Positions 1,397 to 42,173 of a stretch of 64,000 nucleotides of DNA are shown piece after piece. The stretch comes from an uncultured Alistipes sp. GTDB lineage: Bacteria > Bacteroidota > Bacteroidia > Bacteroidales > Rikenellaceae. Every line of letters starts with the position of its first letter. The first letter of the stretch is position 1. The translations under genes were made by a program, and so were the position numbers. The DNA is taken from contig CALUMQ010000029.1 in assembly GCA_944321765.1 (NCBI GenBank), positions 124,001 to 188,000 on the forward strand, in the 5' to 3' direction. Under the pieces are notes generated by a model. It saw nothing but the letters and a program-made list of their open reading frames with translations. It did no database searches and was not told where the DNA came from.

Positions 1397-1443
1397 GCGT
1401 TCGGGAGGGGATGCCCGACGATTTTTTTGAAATTTTTTTCCAT

Positions 1444-2996
<1,553 letters not shown>

Positions 2997-30080: not shown

Positions 30081-31166
30081 CTATCGCGCCTTCGTCTCGC
30101 AGTAGGCGCAGCGGCACGTCCCGTCGGGCATCCGACGGAAGAGCTGGTCCACATCCTCCGTCGCCGAGATGCAGCGGCGGTTCGGGCATACCAGTTCGTT
30201 GACCACATACTCCTCGTTGAAGACCGGCGTGTGCGGGAAGGGACGATTCTCGTCGGCCCAGCGCAGCAGCGTAAGGATCAGGGCCATACGCACGAACTTA
30301 CCGTTCTCCACCTGGCGGAAGTAGGCCGCACGCGGATCGTTGTCCACCGCACGCGTGATCTCGTTCACGCGCGGCAGCGGGTGCAGGATGATCATGTCCT
30401 TCTTGGCTGTGAGCAGTTTCTCCGGATTAAGCACAAAACTGTTCTTCACGCGGTCGAACTCCTCCTCGTCGAGGAAGCGCTCCTTCTGCACGCGCGTCAT
30501 GTAGAGCACGTCCAGTTCCGGCATCACCTCCTCCATCGTGCGCACCTCGCGGAACTCCAGTTTCGAGTTCTCAGACATCTCGGCCAGCATGTAGTCCGGC
30601 AGGCGCAGCTCCTCCGGAGAGATGAGGAAGACCTTGATCCCCTCATAGCGCGACAGCGCCTTGATGAGCGAGTGAACCGTCCGGCCGAACTTCAGATCGC
30701 CGCAGAAGCCGATCGTCATGTGGTCGAAGCGTCCCTTCTCGCGCTTGATCGTCAAGAGGTCCGTGAGCGTCTGCGTCGGGTGCGAGTGGCTGCCGTCCCC
30801 GGCGTTGATCACCGGAACCCCGGCGTACTGCGACGCCACGAGCGGCGCGCCCTCCTTGAAGTGGCGCATGGCGATGATGTCCGCAAAGCAGCGGATCACA
30901 CGCACCGTATCGGCTACCGTCTCACCCTTCGAGACCGACGAGGAGTTGGCGTCCGAGAAGCCGATTACCTGGCCGCCCAGTTCGAGCATGGCCGACGTAA
31001 AGCTCAGGCGCGTACGCGTCGAGGGCTCGTAGAAGAGCGTTGCCAGCTTCTTGCCCTTGCACACTTCGCTGTATTTGGCGCGGTTGGCGATAATATCCTC
31101 CGCCAGGGCCACGATCTGCTCGGTCTCCCGGACCGTCAGATCCGTAGGGTCTATCAGATGTCGCAT
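30081..31166 (-). CDS. pyrB: Aspartate carbamoyltransferase with C-terminal PyrI-type zinc tail
   Basis: A 361-residue protein. Residues 1 to about 320 are the catalytic chain, with [11 protein letters not shown] binding carbamoyl phosphate, HPTQTLTDL, and HPLPRVNEI. The last 35 residues resemble the zinc domain of the regulatory chain Pyr[17 protein letters not shown], then CRCAYCETK, with Cys327, Cys332, Cys353 and Cys356 in the C-x4-C...C-x2-C pattern. The allosteric nucleotide-binding domain of PyrI is absent, and no pyrI gene is found in the cluster. The gene is 13 bases after pyrE and is the last gene of the pyr operon. Confidence 0.95.
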
Positions 31167-31179
31167 CGTTCTCCGGGAT

Positions 31180-31812
31180 TTAGTGTTTCATCCACGATTC
31201 GTCCGACGGATTGTCGCGGAACTTCAGCAGCCGCGCCTTGTCCTCGGGCTTGATATAACCCTCTTCGGCAGCCACCTCGACCAGTGCGTCGAGATTCGAG
31301 AGGCTGTAGTTCGTCACTCCGGCCTCACGCAGCCGGTCGAGGCCCTTCTTCATTCCGTAGGTGAAGATCGACGCAACACCCAGCACCTCGGCTCCCGCTT
31401 CGCGCAGGGCGTTGACCACCTCAATGCACGATCCGGCCGTCGAGATCAGATCCTCGATCACCACGACCTTCTGACCCTTCTCCAGCTTGCCCTCGATCTG
31501 GTTGCCGCGGCCGTGGTCCTTCGATCCCGAGCGGACGTAGCCCATCGGGAGGTTGAGAATCGTGGCGGTAATGGCGGCATGGGCAATGCCGGCCGTCGAG
31601 GTACCCATCAGCACCTCAGCCTCGGGGTACTTCGTGCGCACGATCTCCGCCAGACCCGCCTCGACATGCCCCCGCACCTCGGGAGCCGTCAGCGTCAGAC
31701 GGTTGTCACAGTAGATCGGGCTCTTGATGCCGCTGGCCCAGGTAAACGGCTGTTCGGGACGCAGGAAAACCGCGCCGATCGACAGCAGATCTTTTGCAAT
31801 AGATTTCTCCAT
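31180..31812 (-). CDS. pyrE: Orotate phosphoribosyltransferase
   Basis: A 210-residue enzyme that adds PRPP to orotate giving OMP, the fifth step to UMP. The PRPP loop [18 protein letters not shown] is intact. [19 protein letters not shown] near the N-terminus binds orotate and [21 protein letters not shown] is also typical. Length and start are normal. It lies between the glutaredoxin-like gene (27 bases) and pyrB (13 bases). Confidence 0.96.
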
Positions 31813-32153: not shown

Positions 32154-32858
32154 CTACCCGACGAACTCGGCCAGGCAGCGGTGATAGGCCGCCACGGGAT
32201 CGGCCGCAGCGGTGATCGGGCGTCCCACGACAATGAAGTCCGAACCGATCTCACGCGCACGCGCCGGAGTCGTCACGCGCACCTGGTCGGCCACGTCGCC
32301 GTCGGCAAAGCGTACGCCGGGCGTCACCGTGAGGAACCCCTTGCCGCACGCCTCATGGACCATACCGGCCTCCAGCGGCGAGCAGACCACGCCGTCCAAC
32401 CCCGCAGCCTTGGCATTGCGGGCGTAGTGGACGATCGTGTCGTTGATCGACGCGTCGATGAGCAGCTCCCGACGCATGCGCTCCTCGCTCGTCGAGGTGA
32501 GCTGCGTCACGGCGATCAGCAGCGGACGCGTACCGTCTTCGCGCGTCAGCCCCTCCAGCGCCGCCTTCATCATCTCGATGGTTCCGGCAGCGTGGACGTT
32601 GCACATGTCCACGTCCAGGCGCGACAGCACGGCCATCGCCTTCTTCACCGTATTGGGAATGTCGTGAAGCTTCAGATCGAGGAAGATCCGGTGTCCGCGG
32701 CGTTTGATCTCCCGCACGATCGACGGGCCCTCGGCATAGTAGAGCTCCATGCCGATCTTCAGAAAGGGTTTGCGCACCTCATCCTTGAACAGGTCGAGGA
32801 AGCGGAAGGTGTCCTCTGCGGATTTGAAATCGCAGGCGATGATTACGTCTCGTTCCAT
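32154..32858 (-). CDS. pyrF: Orotidine 5'-phosphate decarboxylase
   Basis: A 234-residue decarboxylase that makes UMP from OMP. The catalytic Asp-Lys-Asp set is in [28 protein letters not shown] at the N-terminus and [17 protein letters not shown] plus VVGRPITAA at the C-terminus bind the phosphate. The length is that of the short, B. subtilis/E. coli-like class. This differs from the roughly 270-residue form in many Bacteroidales, an impression I could not test. It follows pyrD by 37 bases. Confidence 0.95.
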
Positions 32859-32895: not shown

Positions 32896-33867
32896 TTACT
32901 CGACGATCCCGATAATCTCCGACAGGCGCGAGATTCCCAGGCGCCGCATCTCGTCGGGTAGTGCCTCGATGATGTCGCGGCAAGCGTAGGGATTCACCAG
33001 GTTGGCGGCACCGACCTGCACGGCCGTGGCGCCGGCCATCATCATCTCGATGACGTCGCGGGCCGTCTGCACGCCGCCACACCCCATCACGGGGATCCGG
33101 CACGCCCTGGCCACCTGGTAGACCATGCGCACGGCCACCGGGAAGACGGCCGGGCCCGAAAATCCGCCCATCGTATTGGCAATCACCGCACGCCGGCGCC
33201 GTACGTCGACACGCATGCCCAACAGCGTGTTGATCAGGCAGATGCCGTCGGCCCCGGCCTCCTCGCATGCCCGGGCGATCGAGACGATATCCGTCACGTT
33301 GGGCGAGAGCTTGATGAAAACCGGCTTGGTCGTCACGGCCTTCACCGCACGCGTCACCTCGGCGGCCGCCTCGGGCGACGTACCGAACGACATGCCTCCG
33401 TGCCGCACATTCGGGCACGAGACATTGACCTCGATCCACCCCACCTGCTCCTCGCGGTCGATCCGCTGGCAACAGTAGGCATACTCCTCGACCGAGAAGC
33501 CCGAGATGTTGGCGATCACCGGTTTGTGGAAGAAGGTCCGCAGGCGCGGGAGCTCCCGTTCGATCACTGCGTCGATACCGGGGTTCTGAAGCCCCACGGC
33601 ATTGATCATCCCCGCCGTGCATTCGGCGATGCGCGGCGTGGGGTTGCCGAAGCGCGCCTCGCGCGTCGTTCCCTTGAAGGAGAACGTGCCCAGGATATTG
33701 ATGTCGTAGAAATCCTTGAACTCGTTGCCGTAGCCGAACGTACCGCTGGCCGGGATGACCGGATTGTCCAGCCGCACGCCGCACAGCGTGACCGAAAGGT
33801 CCGGTGCGGAGGCCTCGCGGGATGCCGGAGCAGCCCCGCTTGTCGTATTGTGCTGTTCCTCTACCAT
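32896..33867 (-). CDS. pyrD: Dihydroorotate dehydrogenase catalytic subunit (class 1B)
   Basis: A 323-residue FMN enzyme that oxidises dihydroorotate to orotate. The start at 33867 (MVEEQHNTTS) overlaps the pyrK stop by 7 bases. Family marks are NPVIPASGTFGYG, VNVSCPNVRHGG with the class-1 catalytic Cys, FIKLSPNVTDI, GFSGPAVFPVAVRMV and VMGCGGVQTARD. Pairing with PyrK identifies the NAD-dependent B form, which fits an anaerobe. The larger open frame upstream of 33867 is a shadow of pyrK. Confidence 0.96.
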   Translation of the reverse strand: MVEEQHNTTSGAAPASREASAPDLSVTLCGVRLDNPVIPASGTFGYGNEFKDFYDINILGTFSFKGTTREARFGNPTPRIAECTAGMINAVGLQNPGIDAVIERELPRLRTFFHKPVIANISGFSVEEYAYCCQRIDREEQVGWIEVNVSCPNVRHGGMSFGTSPEAAAEVTRAVKAVTTKPVFIKLSPNVTDIVSIARACEEAGADGICLINTLLGMRVDVRRRRAVIANTMGGFSGPAVFPVAVRMVYQVARACRIPVMGCGGVQTARDVIEMMMAGATAVQVGAANLVNPYACRDIIEALPDEMRRLGISRLSEIIGIVE

Positions 33868-34601
33868 ATGATCTCTCCTTTCTCCAGGACGGGTCCCTCC
33901 TTGCAGATGCGTTTGTTTCCGTATTTCGTCTTGCACGAACACCCCATGCAGGCGCCGAAGCCGCAGCCCATGCGCTCCTCGAATGACAGCTGCCCGTCCT
34001 GCGGCACTCCGTCGCACAGGGCCCGCAGCATCGGCAGCGGTCCGCAGGCGTAGAAGTAGTCGAAGTCAAGACCCCGCTCGGCGATGGCCGTGGTCACGAA
34101 GCCCTTCACGCCGCGCGATCCGTCGGCCGTGGCTACCGTGACCGAGCAACCCAGTGCGCGGAACTCCTCCTCGTAGAAGATCTCCGAGGCGGTGTTGAAG
34201 CCCAGCACCACCTCGACATGTCGTCCGGAGGCCAGCAGCCGCCGCGCCAGGTTGTAGAGCGGAGGAACGCCCACGCCGCCCCCGACAAGCAGGGGCCGCT
34301 GCGACGACTCCTTCGGCGTGAAACCGTTGCCGAGGCCCGTCAGCAGGTCCAGCTCCTCTCCGGGAGTCATGCGGCTCATCTGCGCCGTGCCGTCGCCCAC
34401 GACCTTGTAGATCAGCGTGAGCGTGCGGGCGTCGTAGTCGCAGACCGAGATCGGCCGCCGCAGGTATTTGCCTTCCAGGGCGATGTTCACGAACTGCCCC
34501 GGAGCGGTGATCCACTGCGTGTCGCCCTCGAGCGTCATGCGCCATACCGCATCGGTCAGCGGCTCGTTCGTCAGAATCCGATAGATGTCTCTCTTGTACA
34601 T
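33861..34601 (-). CDS. pyrK: Dihydroorotate dehydrogenase electron-transfer subunit
   Basis: A 246-residue FAD/2Fe-2S subunit that passes electrons from PyrD to NAD+. LRRPISVCDYD is the FAD motif, VGGGVGVPPLYNLARRL the nucleotide-binding loop, and the cysteine cluster CGFGACMGCSCKT plus RICKEGPVL binds the 2Fe-2S centre. The start at 34601 (MYKRDIYRIL) suits the family. It overlaps pyrD and follows carB by 63 bases. Confidence 0.96.
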   Translation of the reverse strand: MYKRDIYRILTNEPLTDAVWRMTLEGDTQWITAPGQFVNIALEGKYLRRPISVCDYDARTLTLIYKVVGDGTAQMSRMTPGEELDLLTGLGNGFTPKESSQRPLLVGGGVGVPPLYNLARRLLASGRHVEVVLGFNTASEIFYEEEFRALGCSVTVATADGSRGVKGFVTTAIAERGLDFDYFYACGPLPMLRALCDGVPQDGQLSFEERMGCGFGACMGCSCKTKYGNKRICKEGPVLEKGEIIW

Positions 34602-34664
34602 GGTTATCCGTTGGCTGCCGGGGAGAGGGAGTCTGTCCGTCCCCGGCCGCAATCCTTCGTTCGG

Positions 34665-37600
34665 TTATTTCGCGTCGATGGTCGACACCCGCAGCGTGAT
34701 CTCCTCCAGCACGTCGAGCAGCACCTTCACCGTCTCGAGCGCCGTGAAGACCGTCACGTTGTTCTCGACGGCCGTGCGGCGGATCTCATAGCCGTCGAGG
34801 CGCGTATTGTGCTGGTTGATGTCGATCGTGTTGATCACGTAGCTGATGTGTCCCTGACGCAGTGCGTCGATGATCTCCGTGCTTCCCTCGCTCAACTTCC
34901 GCCGTGTACGCGTGCGGATGCCGTGCTCGCGAAGGAACTCCGCCGTGCCGGTCGTCGCCTCGATGTTGAAGCCCAGATCGTAGAAACGTTTTACCAGAGG
35001 CAGTGCCTGCTCCTTGTCCTGATCGGCGATCGTCACGACGATCGTTCCGTAGTTCGAGACGTGCATGCCCGTGGCCTGCAGCGCCTTGTAGAGGGCCCGC
35101 GTCAGTTTGTCATCGTAACCGATCGCCTCGCCCGTCGACTTCATCTCCGGAGAGAGGTACGAATCCATGCCGCGGATCTTCGCAAACGAGAAGGCCGGGG
35201 CCTTGACGTACCAGCGCGTCTTCTCCTTGCCGTAGACCTCCGTGATGCCCAGCTCGCGCAGCGTCTTGCCCAGGATCACCTGCGTGGCGATATGGGCCAT
35301 CTGCACGCCCGTCGACTTCGACAGGAACGGCACCGTGCGCGACGAACGCGGGTTGACCTCGATGACGTAGACGTCGTCGTCGCCCGCCACGATAAACTGA
35401 ATGTTATAGAGTCCCACGATGCCGATCCGCAGACCCAGCCGCACCGTGTAGTCGATGATCTTCTCTTTGGCCTTCCGGCTCACGCTGAAGGTCGGGTAGA
35501 CGCTGATCGAGTCGCCCGAATGGATACCCGTGTGCTCGACATGCTCCATGATGCCCGGAATGAAGACATCCTTGCCATCGCAGATGGCGTCGACCTCCAG
35601 CTCCTTGCCCATGATATAGCGGTCGACGAGCACCGGCGAATCCTCGTTCACCTCAACGGCCGTCTGCAGGTAGTGGCGCAGGCGCTCCTCGTTCGAGACG
35701 ATCTGCATCGCGCGGCCGCCCAGCACATAGCTCGGACGAACCAGCACCGGATACCCGATGCGCGCCGCGGCACGCACACCGGACTCGATATCCGTCACGG
35801 CCTCGGCCTCCGGCTGCGGAATGCCCAGCTCCTCCATGATCCGCTCGAAGCAGCCGCGGTCCTCGGCGTTGCGGATCGCCTGCGTGTCGGTGCCGATAAT
35901 GGGCACACCCAGTTCGGCCAGCGGTTCGGCCAGGTTGATGGCCGTCTGTCCGCCCAGCGACACCACGATGCCCTTGGGCTTCTCCAGATGGATGACGTTC
36001 ATCACATCCTCGACCGTCAGCGGCTCGAAGTAGAGTTTGTCGCTGGTCGTATAGTCGGTCGACACGGTCTCGGGGTTGTTGTTGATGATGATCGCCTCGT
36101 AACCGGCCTCGCGGATCGACCAGATGGCGTGCACCGTCGAATAGTCGAACTCCACACCCTGGCCGATACGGATCGGGCCCGAACCCAGCACGATGATCTT
36201 CTCCTTGGGGCTGACCATCGATTCGTTCTCCAACTCGTAGGTCGAATAGAAGTACGGCACGTAGGAGGCGAACTCGCTGGCGCACGTATCGATCATCTTG
36301 TAGACCGGGAAGATGTCGTTCTGCTCGCGCAGCCGGTAGACGTCATGCTGCGAGAGTCCCCACAACTGTCCGATGAACTTGTCGCTGAAGCCCATGCGCT
36401 TGGCGTCGCGCAGCGTCGTCACGTCGCCCGGATGGGCGCGCACGACCTTCTCGAACTCCACGATGTTCTTGAACTTCTCGAGGAAGAACATGTCGATCTT
36501 CGTATTGTTGTAGATCAGCGCCAGATCCACGCCTCCGCGGATCAGCTGCGCAATGGCATAGAGGCGGTCGTCGGTTCCCTCCTTGATGTACTCCAGCAGG
36601 TCGTCGTTCGTCCACGTGTCGAACTTCTTGTTGTAGATATGGCAGACACCCGTCTCGAGCGAGCGGACCGCCTTCAGCAGCGACTCCTCCATCGTGCGGC
36701 CGATCGACATCACCTCGCCCGTGGCCTTCATCTGCGTGCCCAGCTTGTTCGACGCATCGGAGAACTTGTCGAACGGGAAGCGGGCGATCTTCGTGACGAC
36801 GTAGTCCAGCGTCGGCTCGAACGAGGCCGGCGTGTTGGCAATGCGGATCTCGTCGAGCGTAAGTCCCACGGCGATCTTCGCGCTCACGCGGGCGATCGGA
36901 TAGCCCGAGGCCTTCGACGCCAGAGCCGACGAACGCGACACACGCGGATTGACCTCGATCAGGTAGTATTTGAACGACAGAGGATCGAGCGCGAACTGCA
37001 CGTTGCAGCCTCCCTCGATCTTCAGCGCACGGATGATCTTCAGCGCAGAGTCGCGCAGCATCTGGAACTCCTTGTTCGTAAGCGTCTGGCTCGGGGCCAC
37101 GACGATCGAGTCGCCCGTGTGGATACCCACCGGGTCGATATTCTCCATGCAGCAGATGCTGATGGCCGTATCGTTATGGTCGCGCATTACCTCGTACTCG
37201 ATCTCCTTGTAGCCCTTGATGCTCTTCTCGACGAGCACCTGGTGAACCGGCGACAGCGCCAGGGCGTGACGCATCATTTCGCACAACTCCTCTTCGTTGT
37301 CGGCGAAGCCGCCGCCCGTGCCGCCCAGCGTAAAGGCCGGACGAAGCACCACAGGATACCCGATCTTCGCGGCGATCTCCACGGCCTCCTCGACCGAGTT
37401 GGCCACCTCCGAAGGCAATACCGGCTCGCCCAGCGACTCGCAGAGCTCCTTGAACAGCTCGCGGTCCTCGGCGCGCTCGATCGACTCGAACGACGTGCCC
37501 AGGATCTCCACCTGGCACTCCTTCAGAATGCCCTTCTTGGCAAGCTGCACGGCGAGGTTCAGACCCGTCTGCCCTCCCAGTCCCGGAACGATCGCATCGG

Positions 37601-37847
37601 GACGCTCGTAGCGGATGATCTTCGCCACGTACTCCAGCGTCAGCGGCTCCATGTAGACCTTGTCGGCAATGTGCGTATCGGTCATGATGGTGGCGGGATT
37701 CGAATTGGCAAGGATGACCTCGTATCCCTCCTCCTTGAGTGCAAGGCACGCCTGCGTACCCGCATAGTCGAACTCGGCAGCCTGACCGATTACGATCGGG
37801 CCCGACCCGATGACCATCACCTTCTTGATATCTTTTCTCTTAGGCAT
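34665..37847 (-). CDS. carB: Carbamoyl-phosphate synthase large subunit
   Basis: A 1060-residue enzyme with two ATP-grasp halves (residues about 1-550 and 551-930) and a C-terminal MGS-like allosteric domain (about 930-1060). [20 protein letters not shown] begins the first half and [20 protein letters not shown] the second. [16 protein letters not shown] and [15 protein letters not shown] are the paired ATP/Mg sites. The MGS domain is where nucleotides such as UMP regulate the E. coli enzyme. It makes carbamoyl phosphate for pyrimidines (and arginine if that route exists). It overlaps carA by 8 bases. Confidence 0.98.
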
Positions 37848-38931
37848 GTCTGAACTCCTCCATGTTTTTAGTGAACTTTTCGAACAAATAGGCGCTGTCC
37901 TGCGGTCCCGGAGCGCTCTCCGGATGGTACTGCGTCGAGAAGACCCGATCCTCGGCGCACTCCACGCCTTCGGCCGTGCCGTCGAGCAGATTGACGTGCG
38001 TCAGCGTCAGCCCCGTACCCTTCAGCGAATCGAGATCCACGGCGTAGCTGTGGTTCTGGCTCGTGATCTCGAGCTTGCCCGTCTGAAGATTCTTCACCGG
38101 GTGGTTCGCCCCGCGGTGTCCGAACTTCATCTTGAATGTCCGGGCTCCGTAGGCCAGCGAGATCAACTGGTGACCCATGCAGATGCCGAAGAGCGGCAGA
38201 CGCCCCCGCAGCTTGCGGATCAGCTCGATGACCGGCTGCACATCCTCCGGATTGCCCGGGCCGTTCGAGAACAGAATGCCGTCGGGATGGAAGGCAAGGA
38301 TCTCCTCCAGGGTCGAATTGTAGGGCATCACCGTGACGTTGCAGCCCACGTGGTTGAGCTGCCGCACGATGTTGTATTTGATGCCGCAGTCGATGGCCAC
38401 CACATCGAACTTGTGGTTCGGAACGCGCGACTGCCACCGCTTCCTGCAGCTCACGCGCGAAACCATGTCGTGGGGCATCTCATAGGCCCGCAGCCGCGCA
38501 AGAGCCTCCTCGCGGGGCGTCGAGGCCGCGGTGACAATCACCTTCTGGCTTCCCTCGTCACGAATGATGCGCGTCAGGGCCCGGGTATCCACCCCCGAGA
38601 TGGCCGGAATACCGTACTCCTCGAATACCTCGTCGAGCGTCTTCGTGGAGCGGAAATTCGAAGGCAGATCGTTGTACTCCCGCACGATCATTCCGCCGAT
38701 GGTCGGCGTCTTGGTCTCGTAATCCTCGTCGGCCATTCCGTAGTTGCCGATCAGCGGATAGGTCATCACGACCATCTGATCCGTGTACGACGGATCGGAC
38801 ATGATCTCCTGATACCCCACCATCGAGGTATTGAAGACGATCTCGTTGATGGCCTCACGGTCGGCTCCGAAACCGTAGCCGTAGAATTCGCGGCCGTCCT
38901 CCAGGACGATCTTTTTCGTAAATGCTTTCAT
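37840..38931 (-). CDS. carA: Carbamoyl-phosphate synthase small subunit
   Basis: A 363-residue glutaminase subunit that feeds ammonia to CarB. The N-terminal CPSase_sm domain begins [17 protein letters not shown]. The C-terminal class I amidotransferase has [11 protein letters not shown], the nucleophile in [17 protein letters not shown], and the His-Glu pair in [10 protein letters not shown]. It is complete and normal in length. It starts 12 bases after pyrC. Confidence 0.97.
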
Positions 38932-38943
38932 CCTTGTCTGTCC

Positions 38944-40227
38944 TTATCTGATTGTTTTCGTTGTCTTGGCATCGTATACGTACGCCTCGCGGCCTCCGAC
39001 GACCGTCAGCACCGCACGCCCCTGCACCTCCCAGTCGGCAAAGGGAGTGGCATGCCCCTTCGAGCGGAACGTCGCGGGATCGATCACATAACGGGTGTCG
39101 AGGTCCAGCACCGTAAAGTCGGCCCTTTGACCCGGCTCAATGCCCCCTTCGAGGCCGAAGATCCGCCGCGGATTGGCCGACATGAGCGTCATCAGGCGGT
39201 CGAAGCCGATCACACCCTTCAGCACCAGATGCGTGTAGAGCAGCGGGAAGGCCGTTTCGAGGCCCACGATTCCCATGGCGCTGCCCTCCAGTCCGCGCGA
39301 CTTCTCGGCAGCCGTGTGCGGGGCATGATCCGTGGCCACGACCTCGATCGTACCGTCGGCAATACCCTCCAGCAGCGCCTCGCGATCGGCGCGGCTGCGC
39401 AGCGGCGGATTCATCTTGAAGCGTCCCTCCTCCTGCAGATCCTCGTCGCAGAGCAGCAGGTAGTGCGGACCCGTCTCGCAACTTACGCGAAGTCCCCGGG
39501 CCCGGGCCTCACGGACCAGCGCCACGCTCTCCTTCGTCGAGATGTGGCAGACGTGGTACTGGCACCCCGTTTTCTCGGAGAGTGCAATATCGCGCTCGAC
39601 CTGACGCCATTCGCTTTCGGATGAGATGCCCCGATGACCATGTTCGCGGCAGTAGACGCCGTCGTGAATGTAGCCGCCGTGAAGCAGGTCGTCGACCTCG
39701 CAGTGCGCGACGATCGGTTTGTGGACCGCCGCGGCCCGACACATCGCCTCCTCCATCAGGTCGGCCGACTGCACGCCGCGACCATCATCGGAAAATCCCA
39801 CGACTTGAGGGGCCAGGGCCGCAAAGTCGACCAGTTCGCCGCACCCGCGCTGCCCCAGGGTGATCGAGCCGTAGGGAAGGACATGCACCGCCGCATCGCG
39901 GCGGATGATCGCCAACTGCTCCTCAAGATGCTCCGGCGTATCGGGAGCCGGATTCAGGTTGGGCATCGAGCAGACGGTGGTATAACCGCCTGCGGCCGCG
40001 GCGGCCGTTCCGCTGGCAATGGTCTCCTTCTGCGGAAATCCCGGCTCGCGCAGGTGGACGTGTACATCGACCAGTCCCGGCACGAGGCTCAGTCCCCCGA
40101 GATCGACAATCCGGTCACCGGGCTGCGGCTCACAATCCGCAACCACCCGGTCGCCGTCGACCACGAGGCGCCCCTCCTCGAACCGACCGTTGCGAAAGAT
40201 CCGCGCATGGGTGTAGAAACTCTTCAT
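38944..40227 (-). CDS. pyrC: Dihydroorotase (type I, bacterial AllB/PyrC-like)
   Basis: A 427-residue zinc amidohydrolase that cyclises carbamoyl aspartate. The metal site VDVHVHLREPGFPQKE and the catalytic ATDHAPHTAAEKSRG are present, with HCEVDDLLHGG in between. The start is taken as 40227 (MKSFYTHARIF). An in-frame ATG at 40242 sits on the poly-U of the upstream attenuator and would add five residues. This is the first structural gene of the pyr operon, so its expression is expected to depend on read-through of that attenuator. Confidence 0.96.
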   Translation of the reverse strand: MKSFYTHARIFRNGRFEEGRLVVDGDRVVADCEPQPGDRIVDLGGLSLVPGLVDVHVHLREPGFPQKETIASGTAAAAAGGYTTVCSMPNLNPAPDTPEHLEEQLAIIRRDAAVHVLPYGSITLGQRGCGELVDFAALAPQVVGFSDDGRGVQSADLMEEAMCRAAAVHKPIVAHCEVDDLLHGGYIHDGVYCREHGHRGISSESEWRQVERDIALSEKTGCQYHVCHISTKESVALVREARARGLRVSCETGPHYLLLCDEDLQEEGRFKMNPPLRSRADREALLEGIADGTIEVVATDHAPHTAAEKSRGLEGSAMGIVGLETAFPLLYTHLVLKGVIGFDRLMTLMSANPRRIFGLEGGIEPGQRADFTVLDLDTRYVIDPATFRSKGHATPFADWEVQGRAVLTVVGGREAYVYDAKTTKTIR

Positions 40228-40241
40228 CGTTTGCTGTCGCA

Positions 40242-40273
40242 TAAAAAAATAGGGCAACCTAAACAGTTACCCT
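40242..40273 (-). terminator. Intrinsic terminator (attenuator) before pyrC
   Basis: Minus strand arms AGGGTAAC (40273-40266) and GTTGCCCT (40258-40251) pair with one U-G and a 7-base loop, followed by ATTTTTTTA. It lies 15 bases before pyrC and overlaps the stop codon of the leader ORF. Confidence 0.85.
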
Positions 40274-40373
40274 AAAGAAACAAAATACCCGAATCCGCCG
40301 GAAATTGGAACCCCGACCAATAATCCCGCAACCGAAATGATTGCGCTAATGGTATGTTGGGGTTACGCTTCAT
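40272..40373 (-). CDS. Putative pyr leader peptide (33 codons)
   Basis: ATG at 40373 lies about 26 bases after the predicted transcription start. It opens a 33-codon frame beginning MKRNPNIPLAQSF and ending ADSGILFL-stop. The TAG stop (40274-40272) forms the first bases of the attenuator's 5' arm. The last codons are U-rich: GTATTTTGTTTCTTTAG. Upstream, CGCAA/TTGCG (40345-40341, 40331-40327) and AACCCC/GGGGTT (40364-40359, 40314-40309) could form a nested pause hairpin. The arrangement copies enterobacterial pyrBI and pyrE leaders, where low UTP stalls polymerase in the U-run, the ribosome catches up and blocks the terminator. Translation of this ORF is inferred, not shown. Confidence 0.6.
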   Translation of the reverse strand: MKRNPNIPLAQSFRLRDYWSGFQFPADSGILFL

Positions 40374-40406
40374 AGGTTTGGACTCAGGTGTCGCCGTAAT
40401 TGGTTA

Positions 40407-40438
40407 CAAAGATAGCGGTTTTTCATCGGGTGCGCAAA
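40407..40438 (-). promoter_or_regulatory. Promoter of the pyr operon
   Basis: Minus strand TTTG (40438-40435), 20 bases, TATCTTTG (40414-40407), a full consensus match. Predicted start near 40399 gives a leader of about 170 nt before pyrC. Confidence 0.8.
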
Positions 40439-40703: not shown

Positions 40704-42173
40704 TTATGCCTTGTTTGCGGAGGCGGCCTCAGCGTCGTCCTCGTAGCCATCAGCCTTGGCTCCCCACATCAGCAGGAAGACCAGCATGCCCACGACGGCA
40801 ACGCCGATAATGCCGACATAGGCCCAGCTCCATCCATAATGCTGGGCAACGTAGCCGAGACCCACGCCCGAAACGAGCGTCGAAGCGTAACCGAAGAGTC
40901 CCGTGAGGCCGTTGGCCGTTGCCGCTGCACGTTTCGTCGCCTGGTTCGCCGCAGCGATGCCGATCAGCGCCTGCGGACCGTAGATACAGAATCCCGCGGC
41001 GCACAGCGAAGCGAAGAGCAGCCAGATCGGGGCATCCGAGGGCAGCTGCCAGAAGATGAAGACAAACAGCGCGGCGCCGGCCATGCAGAAGACACACGTA
41101 CGGTGTGCGCGCCCCTTGAGCCACTTGTCGGTCGCCCAACCCGAGAAGAGCATACCGAGAATACCGGCGATCTCGAACATCGCCACGAGCCATCCGGCAT
41201 GCTCCATGCTCACGCCCTTCGACTGACTCAGCAGCGACGGGCCCCAGTCGAGCACCGAGAAGCGTACGACATAGACGAAGAAGTTGGCAACGCCGAGGAT
41301 CCAGATCAGCGGATTCTTGAAGACGTATTTCATCAGGAAGGCCCGATGTTCGTCACCCTGCTTCTTGCTCTTGACCTCCTGCGTACGGGTACCCTCCAGT
41401 TCGGGAAGTCCGACGGATGTCGGCGTGTCCCGCAGGAAGAGCACCAGACCCAGAGCACCCGCCAATGCTATGCCCGAGGGGATCCAGAAGCACCACCTCC
41501 AGGCGCCGTAATGCGCCGCGAAGGTCATCACCGTGGCCATGCCCTCCGGATCGGAGGGATCGATGCCCAGGTTGGCGGCGATCTGCGATACGGCCGCAGG
41601 ATCGTCACTGACGTTCTGGCCCATGTGCCCCATCAGATAGCCGCAGAGAATCACCACCAGACCGGCTCCGATCGAGTGCGAAGTATTCCACACCGACATC
41701 TTCGTGGCCAGCTGCTTGGGAGGTACCCAGTGCGTCAGCAGGCGTGCGCACGGAGGAAAGCCGCTGCCCTGCAGCAGGCCGTTGACCACCCACATCACCC
41801 CCATGAAGAGGATCATCGTGTTGGTGAACTGCGTGCCCATGTGTTCGCCCGTGATCCAGTAGGAGACATCCTCACCGAAGCCGAAGGCAAAGTTGGCCAG
41901 GGCGCAGAGGGCCAGGCCGATGGCCATGTACCAGCGGGCGTTCATCCGGTCGGCGAAGATGCCGTTGATGAAGCGCGAGAATCCGTAGATGAGGCCATTG
42001 AGCGTCAGGAAGATACCGAGGCTCGTCTTCGAGATGCCGAGGTCGGCCTCCAGGCCGGGCATGGCCAGCGAGAAGTTTTTGCGCACGAAGTAGAACAGCG
42101 CATAGCCGATCATCGTAGCGAGGATCGTCCGCGTCTGCCAATACTTGAAACGCTTGCTTTGTTCAGGTGTCAT
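40704..42173 (-). CDS. Organophosphate:phosphate antiporter (GlpT/UhpT-like MFS)
   Basis: A 489-residue inner-membrane transporter with about 12 membrane segments of the OPA branch of the major facilitator superfamily. KRFKYWQTRTILATMIGYA with FYFVRKNFSLAMPG at the N-terminus and FINGIFADRMNARW are family marks; the loop after segment 6 carries LFLRDTPTSVGLPELEG. Family members exchange inorganic phosphate for glycerol-3-phosphate or hexose phosphates. Glycerol-3-phosphate is the most likely substrate, but the sequence alone does not settle it. A TATCTTTG box lies 31 bases before the start. Confidence 0.88.
   Translation of the reverse strand: MTPEQSKRFKYWQTRTILATMIGYALFYFVRKNFSLAMPGLEADLGISKTSLGIFLTLNGLIYGFSRFINGIFADRMNARWYMAIGLALCALANFAFGFGEDVSYWITGEHMGTQFTNTMILFMGVMWVVNGLLQGSGFPPCARLLTHWVPPKQLATKMSVWNTSHSIGAGLVVILCGYLMGHMGQNVSDDPAAVSQIAANLGIDPSDPEGMATVMTFAAHYGAWRWCFWIPSGIALAGALGLVLFLRDTPTSVGLPELEGTRTQEVKSKKQGDEHRAFLMKYVFKNPLIWILGVANFFVYVVRFSVLDWGPSLLSQSKGVSMEHAGWLVAMFEIAGILGMLFSGWATDKWLKGRAHRTCVFCMAGAALFVFIFWQLPSDAPIWLLFASLCAAGFCIYGPQALIGIAAANQATKRAAATANGLTGLFGYASTLVSGVGLGYVAQHYGWSWAYVGIIGVAVVGMLVFLLMWGAKADGYEDDAEAASANKA

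Follow-up and report, generated by a model that had tools for sequence, protein, structure and literature searches.

The leader that precedes the pyrimidine operon on the minus strand of the window (the whole stretch of 64,000 nucleotides that was analysed) is likely to be a UTP-sensing attenuator of the pyrBI and pyrE kind, acting through the coupling of transcription and translation, to judge from its sequence and from those of its relatives. For enterobacteria, it is textbook knowledge that UTP regulates pyrimidine synthesis by way of the coupling between ribosome and polymerase.

In the course of events that we infer, transcription would start near position 40400 (minus strand) and a ribosome would enter the leader open reading frame (ORF) without a Shine-Dalgarno (SD) site. 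At low UTP, the RNA polymerase would slow down in the U-rich tract that closes the ORF and the ribosome would close up to the stop codon at the hairpin base, covering the 5' arm; with this arm covered the terminator would fail, and pyrC-carAB-pyrKDFEB would be transcribed. At high UTP, the polymerase would run ahead, the hairpin would form and transcription would end before pyrC.

The leader and its operon in the window

The features of the leader and of the operon are collected in Table 1. The promoter sits between the upstream transporter gene and the leader ORF, and its two elements fit the Bacteroidota consensus TTTG/TANNTTTG that is quoted in a passage of one source (PMC6847099). The sequence-only reading had described a consensus promoter followed by a 33-codon ORF with a U-rich end, whose TAG forms the first bases of a terminator with seven U, 15 bases from pyrC; the sequence bears this out in all its parts, on the minus strand and with a promoter of the Bacteroidota type. 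The ORF ends with ..GTATTTTGTTTCTTTAG and closes at 40272. From the T-run to the conserved ATG of pyrC (40227) there are 15 bases, and a second in-frame ATG is found at 40242. In leaders L002, L003 and L004, an ATG right after the terminator starts a tiny ORF whose TGA overlaps the ATG of pyrC; the counterpart of that ATG in the window is the one at 40242, there in frame with pyrC. The genes follow the order pyrC-carA-carB-pyrK-pyrD-pyrF-pyrE-pyrB, which is the complete UMP pathway, and purK and purL come next.

Table 1. Positions of the leader elements, the pyr operon genes and the upstream gene in the window
Feature	Position	Strand	Basis
Transporter gene upstream of the leader	40704-42173	minus, same strand as leader	family search
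Promoter element -33, TTTG	40435..40438	minus	sequence; fits Bacteroidota consensus TTTG/TANNTTTG
Promoter element -7, TATCTTTG (TAnnTTTG)	40407..40414	minus	sequence; TAnnTTTG also ahead of relatives' leader ORFs
Larger hairpin predicted ahead of the U-tract, a possible pause site, ends approximate	40279..40395	minus	folding; weakly supported
Leader ORF, 33 codons, ATG to TAG (MKRNPNIPLAQSFRLRDYWSGFQFPADSGILFL)	40272..40373	minus	sequence; kept in relatives
AUA codon 7 of the leader ORF, recurrent feature	40353..40355	minus	counts in relatives
U-rich tract TATTTTGTTTCTTT, 3' end of leader ORF, proposed UTP-sensitive pause region	40274..40287	minus	sequence; U profile and wobble bias in relatives
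Terminator hairpin; TAG stop (40274-40272) is its first three bases	40250..40274	minus	sequence, scan, folding; stem-pair variety in relatives
Terminator tail, seven U	40243..40249	minus	sequence
pyrC, dihydroorotase	38944..40227	minus	family search; conserved start 40227, in-frame ATG also 40242
carA, carbamoyl-phosphate synthase small subunit	37840..38931	minus	family search
carB, carbamoyl-phosphate synthase large subunit	34665..37847	minus	family search
pyrK, dihydroorotate dehydrogenase electron transfer subunit	33861..34652	minus	best family scores below curated cut-offs
pyrD, type-1 dihydroorotate dehydrogenase, start approximate	32896..33810	minus	family search
pyrF, orotidine-5'-phosphate decarboxylase	32154..32858	minus	family search
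pyrE, orotate phosphoribosyltransferase	31180..31812	minus	family search
pyrB, aspartate carbamoyltransferase; C-terminus weakly matches regulatory-subunit family	30081..31166	minus	family search

The hairpin is found by a simple scan, which returns 10 terminator-like sites in its 8-kb region where 5.6 ± 2.1 are expected, so that the hairpin alone is weak evidence. In the genus, 51 of 52 dereplicated hairpins can be aligned, and stem positions 3-6 hold GC, CG, AT, TA and GU between them, each of these positions having both G-C and C-G among its pairs. Since the hairpins were chosen for pairing, the pairing itself is true by construction and the variety of pair types is the sole evidence (the doubtful leaders L184 and L189, as well as L153 for the start-context counts, were left out of the counts per position).

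The sequence-only reading had also placed a nested hairpin upstream, where it could pause the polymerase. A larger hairpin is predicted in the window, whose 161-nt leader folds at z = -3.8, but it is not clearly conserved: leader L001 without the terminator and the last 14 nt before the hairpin gives z = -1.4, and 52 dereplicated leaders so trimmed, with the U-rich end and the terminator removed, give a mean z of -1.0, with 10 of them below -2. The pause hairpin is, at this point, a weakly supported element of the leader. Another candidate, a base-pairing antiterminator in which GUAACC of the leader would pair with GGUUGC of the 3' arm, was seen by eye in the window and set aside, as the same inspection by eye did not show it in L005-L007.

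An intrinsic terminator with two preceding U-runs also lies at 1444 on the plus strand (window 1411-1473), and the gene downstream of it, at 1611 (plus strand), resembles glutamate dehydrogenase by eye. This U-rich terminator was considered as a second device and rejected: it follows a gene end, no promoter box was seen ahead of it, and it probably belongs to the gene that ends before it.

Conservation of the leader in the genus

The pyrC protein was searched in 180 genomes of the genus, of which 175 matched, some of them distantly, and the upstream DNA was taken from the best 150 of the 175 (several of the 25 weaker ones have a distant pyrC only). Two of these leaders were excluded because of contig ends (L019, L117), which leaves 148 that can be assessed; the terminator finder covered the 330 nt before the pyrC match, and the hairpins of L015 and L134 were set by hand for this count. 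By rule, the stop codon of a leader ORF lies between -12 and +6 nt from the hairpin in 139 of the 148, the ORF reads through in 8 and neither is the case in 1. This last leader (L152) fails because its promoter box is too near the ATG, and by eye it has a 20-codon ORF that ends in the hairpin, while L120, a read-through by rule, also has an ATG whose stop falls in range. The terminator is thus read through in seven leaders (L153, L164, L166, L170, L189, L190 and L207), as it is in pyrBI, and a stop at the hairpin is therefore not obligatory. Three of the seven (L153, L164, L189) passed the first ORF scan through another ATG, two of them (L153, L164) also in the comparison with the null model described below; L207 starts with GTG, as does L114.

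The position of these stops can be compared with data from E. coli, where, according to a passage of PMC4824070, a stop codon relocated to a point 5 bp ahead of a terminator reduced termination from ~90% to <10%, and beyond 27 nt no repression remained in that system. In the light of this passage, offsets of -12 to +6 lie within the range of such interference by a ribosome.

An intrinsic terminator between the promoter and the first pyr gene is a regular part of the arrangement. In L015 and L134, inserted repeats separate it from pyrC and the device is found farther upstream; L134 keeps the ORF and is without the U-tract. Repeat copies (GAACCTTTTCGATAAGCCGA...) lie between the leader and pyrC in both, and L015 seems to have them ahead of its leader ORF as well.

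Among the leaders that have a terminator and a -7 box, an ORF of at least 20 codons ends at -12 to +6 in 139 of 146, where 36.5 are expected. When dereplicated with the failures kept, 53 of 60 leaders pass, against an expectation of 13.6 ± 2.7 and a maximum of 26 in 200,000 null draws. The null model left untouched the hairpin and the sequence as far as the first ATG, and the remainder was dinucleotide-shuffled; keeping the successes alone gives 11.9 expected in 54, and the version with the failures (13.6 in 60) is the fairer one. Dereplication retained one leader per cluster of 70% identity, and clusters share descent, so that they are not independent events. Both comparisons, made in relatives, exclude chance. 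The ORFs are 27-45 codons long and most of their residues differ among leaders. If the device was real, the sequence-only reading had argued, relatives should show an ORF ending at the terminator, a U-run and otherwise variable codons, and this is what nearly all of the 148 leaders present.

The second conserved element is the U-tract. The fraction of U per 3-nt block is 0.47-0.65 over the 21 nt that adjoin the hairpin and 0.17-0.49, mostly about 0.3, at -75 to -22. The mean fraction in -21..-1 is 0.55 in 54 leaders and 0.54 in 140; it reaches at least 0.40 in 124 of the 140 and falls below 0.40 in 16, including L008, L014 and L109. The window holds nine further strict terminators, among them the U-rich one at 1444; ahead of their hairpins the fraction of U is 0.05-0.67, and in eight of them at most 0.29. 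The enrichment is also visible in the choice of codons, given that U3/(U3+C3) is 0.87 in the last six codons (203/233), as compared with 0.61 in the remaining ORF (503/831; Fisher p 1.4e-15), and 0.43 in the first part of pyrC (437/1016). Forty leaders with a GC-rich pyrC have U3 fractions of 0.86 in the last six codons, 0.56 in the rest of the ORF and 0.35 in pyrC.

This bears on the possibility that a device of the same construction senses translation in general, being set by initiation, tRNA charging or GTP and not by UTP. Such an attenuator would conserve the ORF and the terminator equally, and a close ribosome does suppress a terminator in E. coli (in the same passage of PMC4824070); nevertheless, it leaves unexplained both the U-tract with the U3 bias of the last codons and the lack of such leaders at the pyrG and permease-like genes examined, and we consider it unlikely. 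The latter genes were inspected by eye over 230 nt upstream, and no such leader was found in the genus at 9 readable pyrG loci and 6 readable loci of NCS2 permease-like genes, or at 2 pyrG loci of other families; the permease-like matches all lie below the family cut-off, and L357 and L334 are misaligned and uninformative.

What is kept at the end of the ORF seems to be the nucleotides rather than the peptide. In 45 leaders whose hairpin starts with TAGGGTA and which share a near-identical U-run such as TTTTGTTTTATTAGGGTAAC, the stop is at TAG 0 in 11, at TAA +5 in 30 and at -3 in 4; a near-identical tract is then read in two frames, with peptide ends such as ILFY, VLLG and GILF, from which it follows that the nucleotides are what is maintained. 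No conserved C-terminus of the kind expected for a TnaC-like arrest peptide was found, the C-termini being in different frames, and there are no runs of codons for one amino acid in the leaders (adjacent pairs of any given residue occur in at most 11 of 54, the figure for Arg and Ser). The Phe, Val and Leu of the last 12 codons are due to the U-tract. Differences are spread almost equally over the three codon positions in several clusters (for example 53, 61 and 50 in that of L017); the L001 cluster has 260, 230 and 447 at the first, second and third positions, and this third-position excess makes some constraint on the peptide possible there.

Few leaders (8 of 52) have a word resembling an SD site ahead of their ATG, and the start region is rich in A at -15..-9, -5, -3 and +4. 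A passage of PMC6847099 gives A at -3, -6, -12 and -13 for efficient starts of Flavobacterium johnsoniae, and the A-rich context of the leaders fits the initiation without SD that this passage describes for the phylum. Codon 7 is AUA in 62 of 147 leaders and in 21 of 51 dereplicated ones, and among the latter A is present at +17 in 69% and at +19 in 82%. The preference is local: in 52 leaders, AUA makes up 28 of the 33 Ile codons at codons 5-9 and 8 of the 61 in the remainder of the ORFs. This codon, often within ACATATCNCCG, keeps a fixed distance to the AUG and a variable one to the promoter, and it is unexplained by the UTP-attenuation model.

One could then think of an arrest-peptide or amino-acid attenuator, in which stalling at chosen codons or by the nascent peptide prevents termination. 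It would be in keeping with the resemblance of the ORF and terminator to his and trp leaders, with the recurring AUA at codon 7 and with the third-position excess of one cluster. This explanation is more improbable still, given that residue runs are missing, that the C-termini change frame and that a ribosome stalled at codon 7 would, in the window, be ~80 nt short of the hairpin and unable to cover it.

In Bacillus, PyrR-dependent pyr attenuation makes use of a terminator ahead of the pyr genes. The terminator is alike in Alistipes, where, in contrast, no PyrR was found and the conserved element is an ORF. The sequence-only reading had seen no pyrR, and the search for one PyrR family (NF003549) agrees with it: none of 61 genomes exceeds the curated cut-off, with weak matches below it in 47 of the 61, and 6 of 14 control genomes exceed it. 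The window has no Rfam match at the gathering score. A terminator controlled by a protein or a ligand (PyrR or a riboswitch), with the ORF as a by-product, has in its favour that an intrinsic terminator before pyr genes is the usual PyrR design; the negative searches just given and the body of the ORF, only 72-84% identical even within clusters, make it very improbable. That the hairpin is the ordinary terminator of the upstream gene and the ORF a matter of chance can be dismissed almost entirely, for although about a quarter of shuffled leaders give such ORFs, the promoter stands between the transporter gene and the ORF, and the conservation of ORF and terminator in relatives speaks against it.

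Likeness to known attenuators

UTP-sensitive attenuation has been assigned to pyrBI and pyrE of E. coli, as stated in a passage of PMC4491880. When the sequences are measured, the Alistipes leader shares with pyrBI (pyrL) a dedicated short ORF, a U-rich run, an intrinsic terminator and a pyrimidine operon next to it. However, the 44 codons of pyrL extend past the terminator to a stop at +44, whereas the Alistipes stop is usually at the hairpin; and the U-run of pyrBI is located about 20-30 nt before the hairpin, while the Alistipes U-tract abuts it. Other differences from pyrBI are the lack of an SD site, an operon for the whole UMP pathway and the preference for AUA at codon 7.

The likeness to rph-pyrE of E. 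coli lies in a stop codon ahead of the terminator that precedes a pyr gene. There, however, the leader is a gene, rph, which is truncated in MG1655 and has its stop at -37, in contrast to the dedicated ORF of 27-45 codons in Alistipes. In intact rph, the stop is located about 8 nt before the pyrE hairpin. The hairpin of E. coli pyrE (AAGGCGACTGATGAGTCGCCTT) resembles many Alistipes hairpins, which was taken as a coincidence. By this comparison, the Alistipes device would be a dedicated short ORF of the pyrBI type joined to the hairpin stop known for pyrE in other strains. The design of pyrBI and pyrE, which the sequence-only reading had invoked, is accordingly shared as far as the layout is concerned; the ORF of pyrBI passes the terminator, and pyrE offers the closer parallel to a stop at the base of the hairpin.

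Within the phylum, the transcriptome of Flavobacterium psychrophilum offers clues for leader-peptide attenuation at amino-acid operons, according to a passage of PMC9723704. Those leaders are alike in that a leader ORF is thought there to control transcription; the Alistipes leader is unlike them in that it has no codon run and has instead a U-tract and a pyrimidine operon. The open-licence literature yielded no report of such a pyr attenuator in Bacteroidota. The earlier statement that no case was known in Bacteroidetes can be maintained for pyr genes as far as this literature goes, and is to be qualified by the clues for amino-acid attenuation in that same passage.

Occurrence outside the genus and possible origin

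Sixty-two loci of a named collection encode this pyrC: by their labels, 10 belong to Alistipes/Rikenellaceae, 6 to other Bacteroidota and the rest mostly to Clostridia (at most 65% identity). They were sought by exact peptide patterns that reach close relatives only; 26 were read by eye and 56 were scanned. Among 24 genomes sampled from the order's other families, 22 have a best pyrC match of only 26-31% identity, and 2 have none. From its sequence, the Alistipes pyrC appears to be of clostridial type (loci L214-L272), and the presence of such a pyrC together with pyrK and a type-1 pyrD in the operon suggests horizontal acquisition.

Of the loci without a Bacteroidota label, 42 in all, 21 show a terminator-like site at no more than 330 nt, and in 5 an ORF ends there. 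By eye, two of these five (L251, L255) are places where a preceding gene ends, the promoter coming after the terminator, and the other three (L241, L254, L258) come from the scan; among the clostridial relatives of pyrC examined by eye or scan, none has a dedicated-looking leader. Of the other loci labelled Bacteroidota, L250 and L253 have a leader ORF, a U-rich end and a terminator; in L261, a 23-codon ORF can be seen by eye together with a terminator, which escaped the finder; no leader device is present in L247 or L234, the flank of L234 looks clostridial, and L268 is cut.

The pyrB genes of other Bacteroidales provide a further comparison. A terminator-like site occurs in 41 of 77 scanned leaders (of 79 collected, L034 and L057 were left out for their cut flanks). 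A promoter-like box, an ORF and a terminator-like hairpin were seen at 11 of the 77, judged by eye alone (L041, L043, L288, L294, L304, L305, L312, L318, L322, L325 and L328); the finder found no terminator in three of them (L043, L305, L318). In these other families the U-tract is often weak, and it is strong in L041, L325 and L328 by count and in L305 by eye. Taken together, the leaders at Bacteroidota-labelled pyrC and at pyrB, as opposed to the lack of them in the Clostridia examined, suggest that the device belongs to the order and was probably acquired there, after the operon had entered it.

Bacteroidota form a phylum without SD initiation and with a different sigma factor. The layout, present in nearly all of 148 genomes, each of another species, thus occurs in a phylum distant from the enterobacteria, and it would imply close transcription-translation coupling there, at least at this site; the leader would then be a natural reporter for such coupling in Bacteroidota. 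It would also supply pyr regulation where no PyrR was found (61 genomes searched), and the operons that carry it have relatives in Clostridia that seem to lack such a device. A broader proposal, which is put forward tentatively and which we hold to be possible rather than probable, is that Bacteroidota have a class of their own, an independently built, UTP-sensing coupled attenuator that is free of SD, stands before an operon with a clostridial-type pyrC, recurs at pyrB of Bacteroidales and includes AUA as a timing element. If this were true, the AUA that forms codon 7, with its A at +17 and +19, would hold the first ribosome and so set the distance between polymerase and ribosome before the U-tract.

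A different arrangement was observed at pyrB in several families of Bacteroidales (L033, L034, L037, L040 and L047), where an upstream gene that by eye looks the same in these loci ends shortly before the terminator that precedes pyrB, in a manner resembling rph-pyrE. The distance from the end of this gene to the terminator is 8-15 nt in the four loci in which it was measured.
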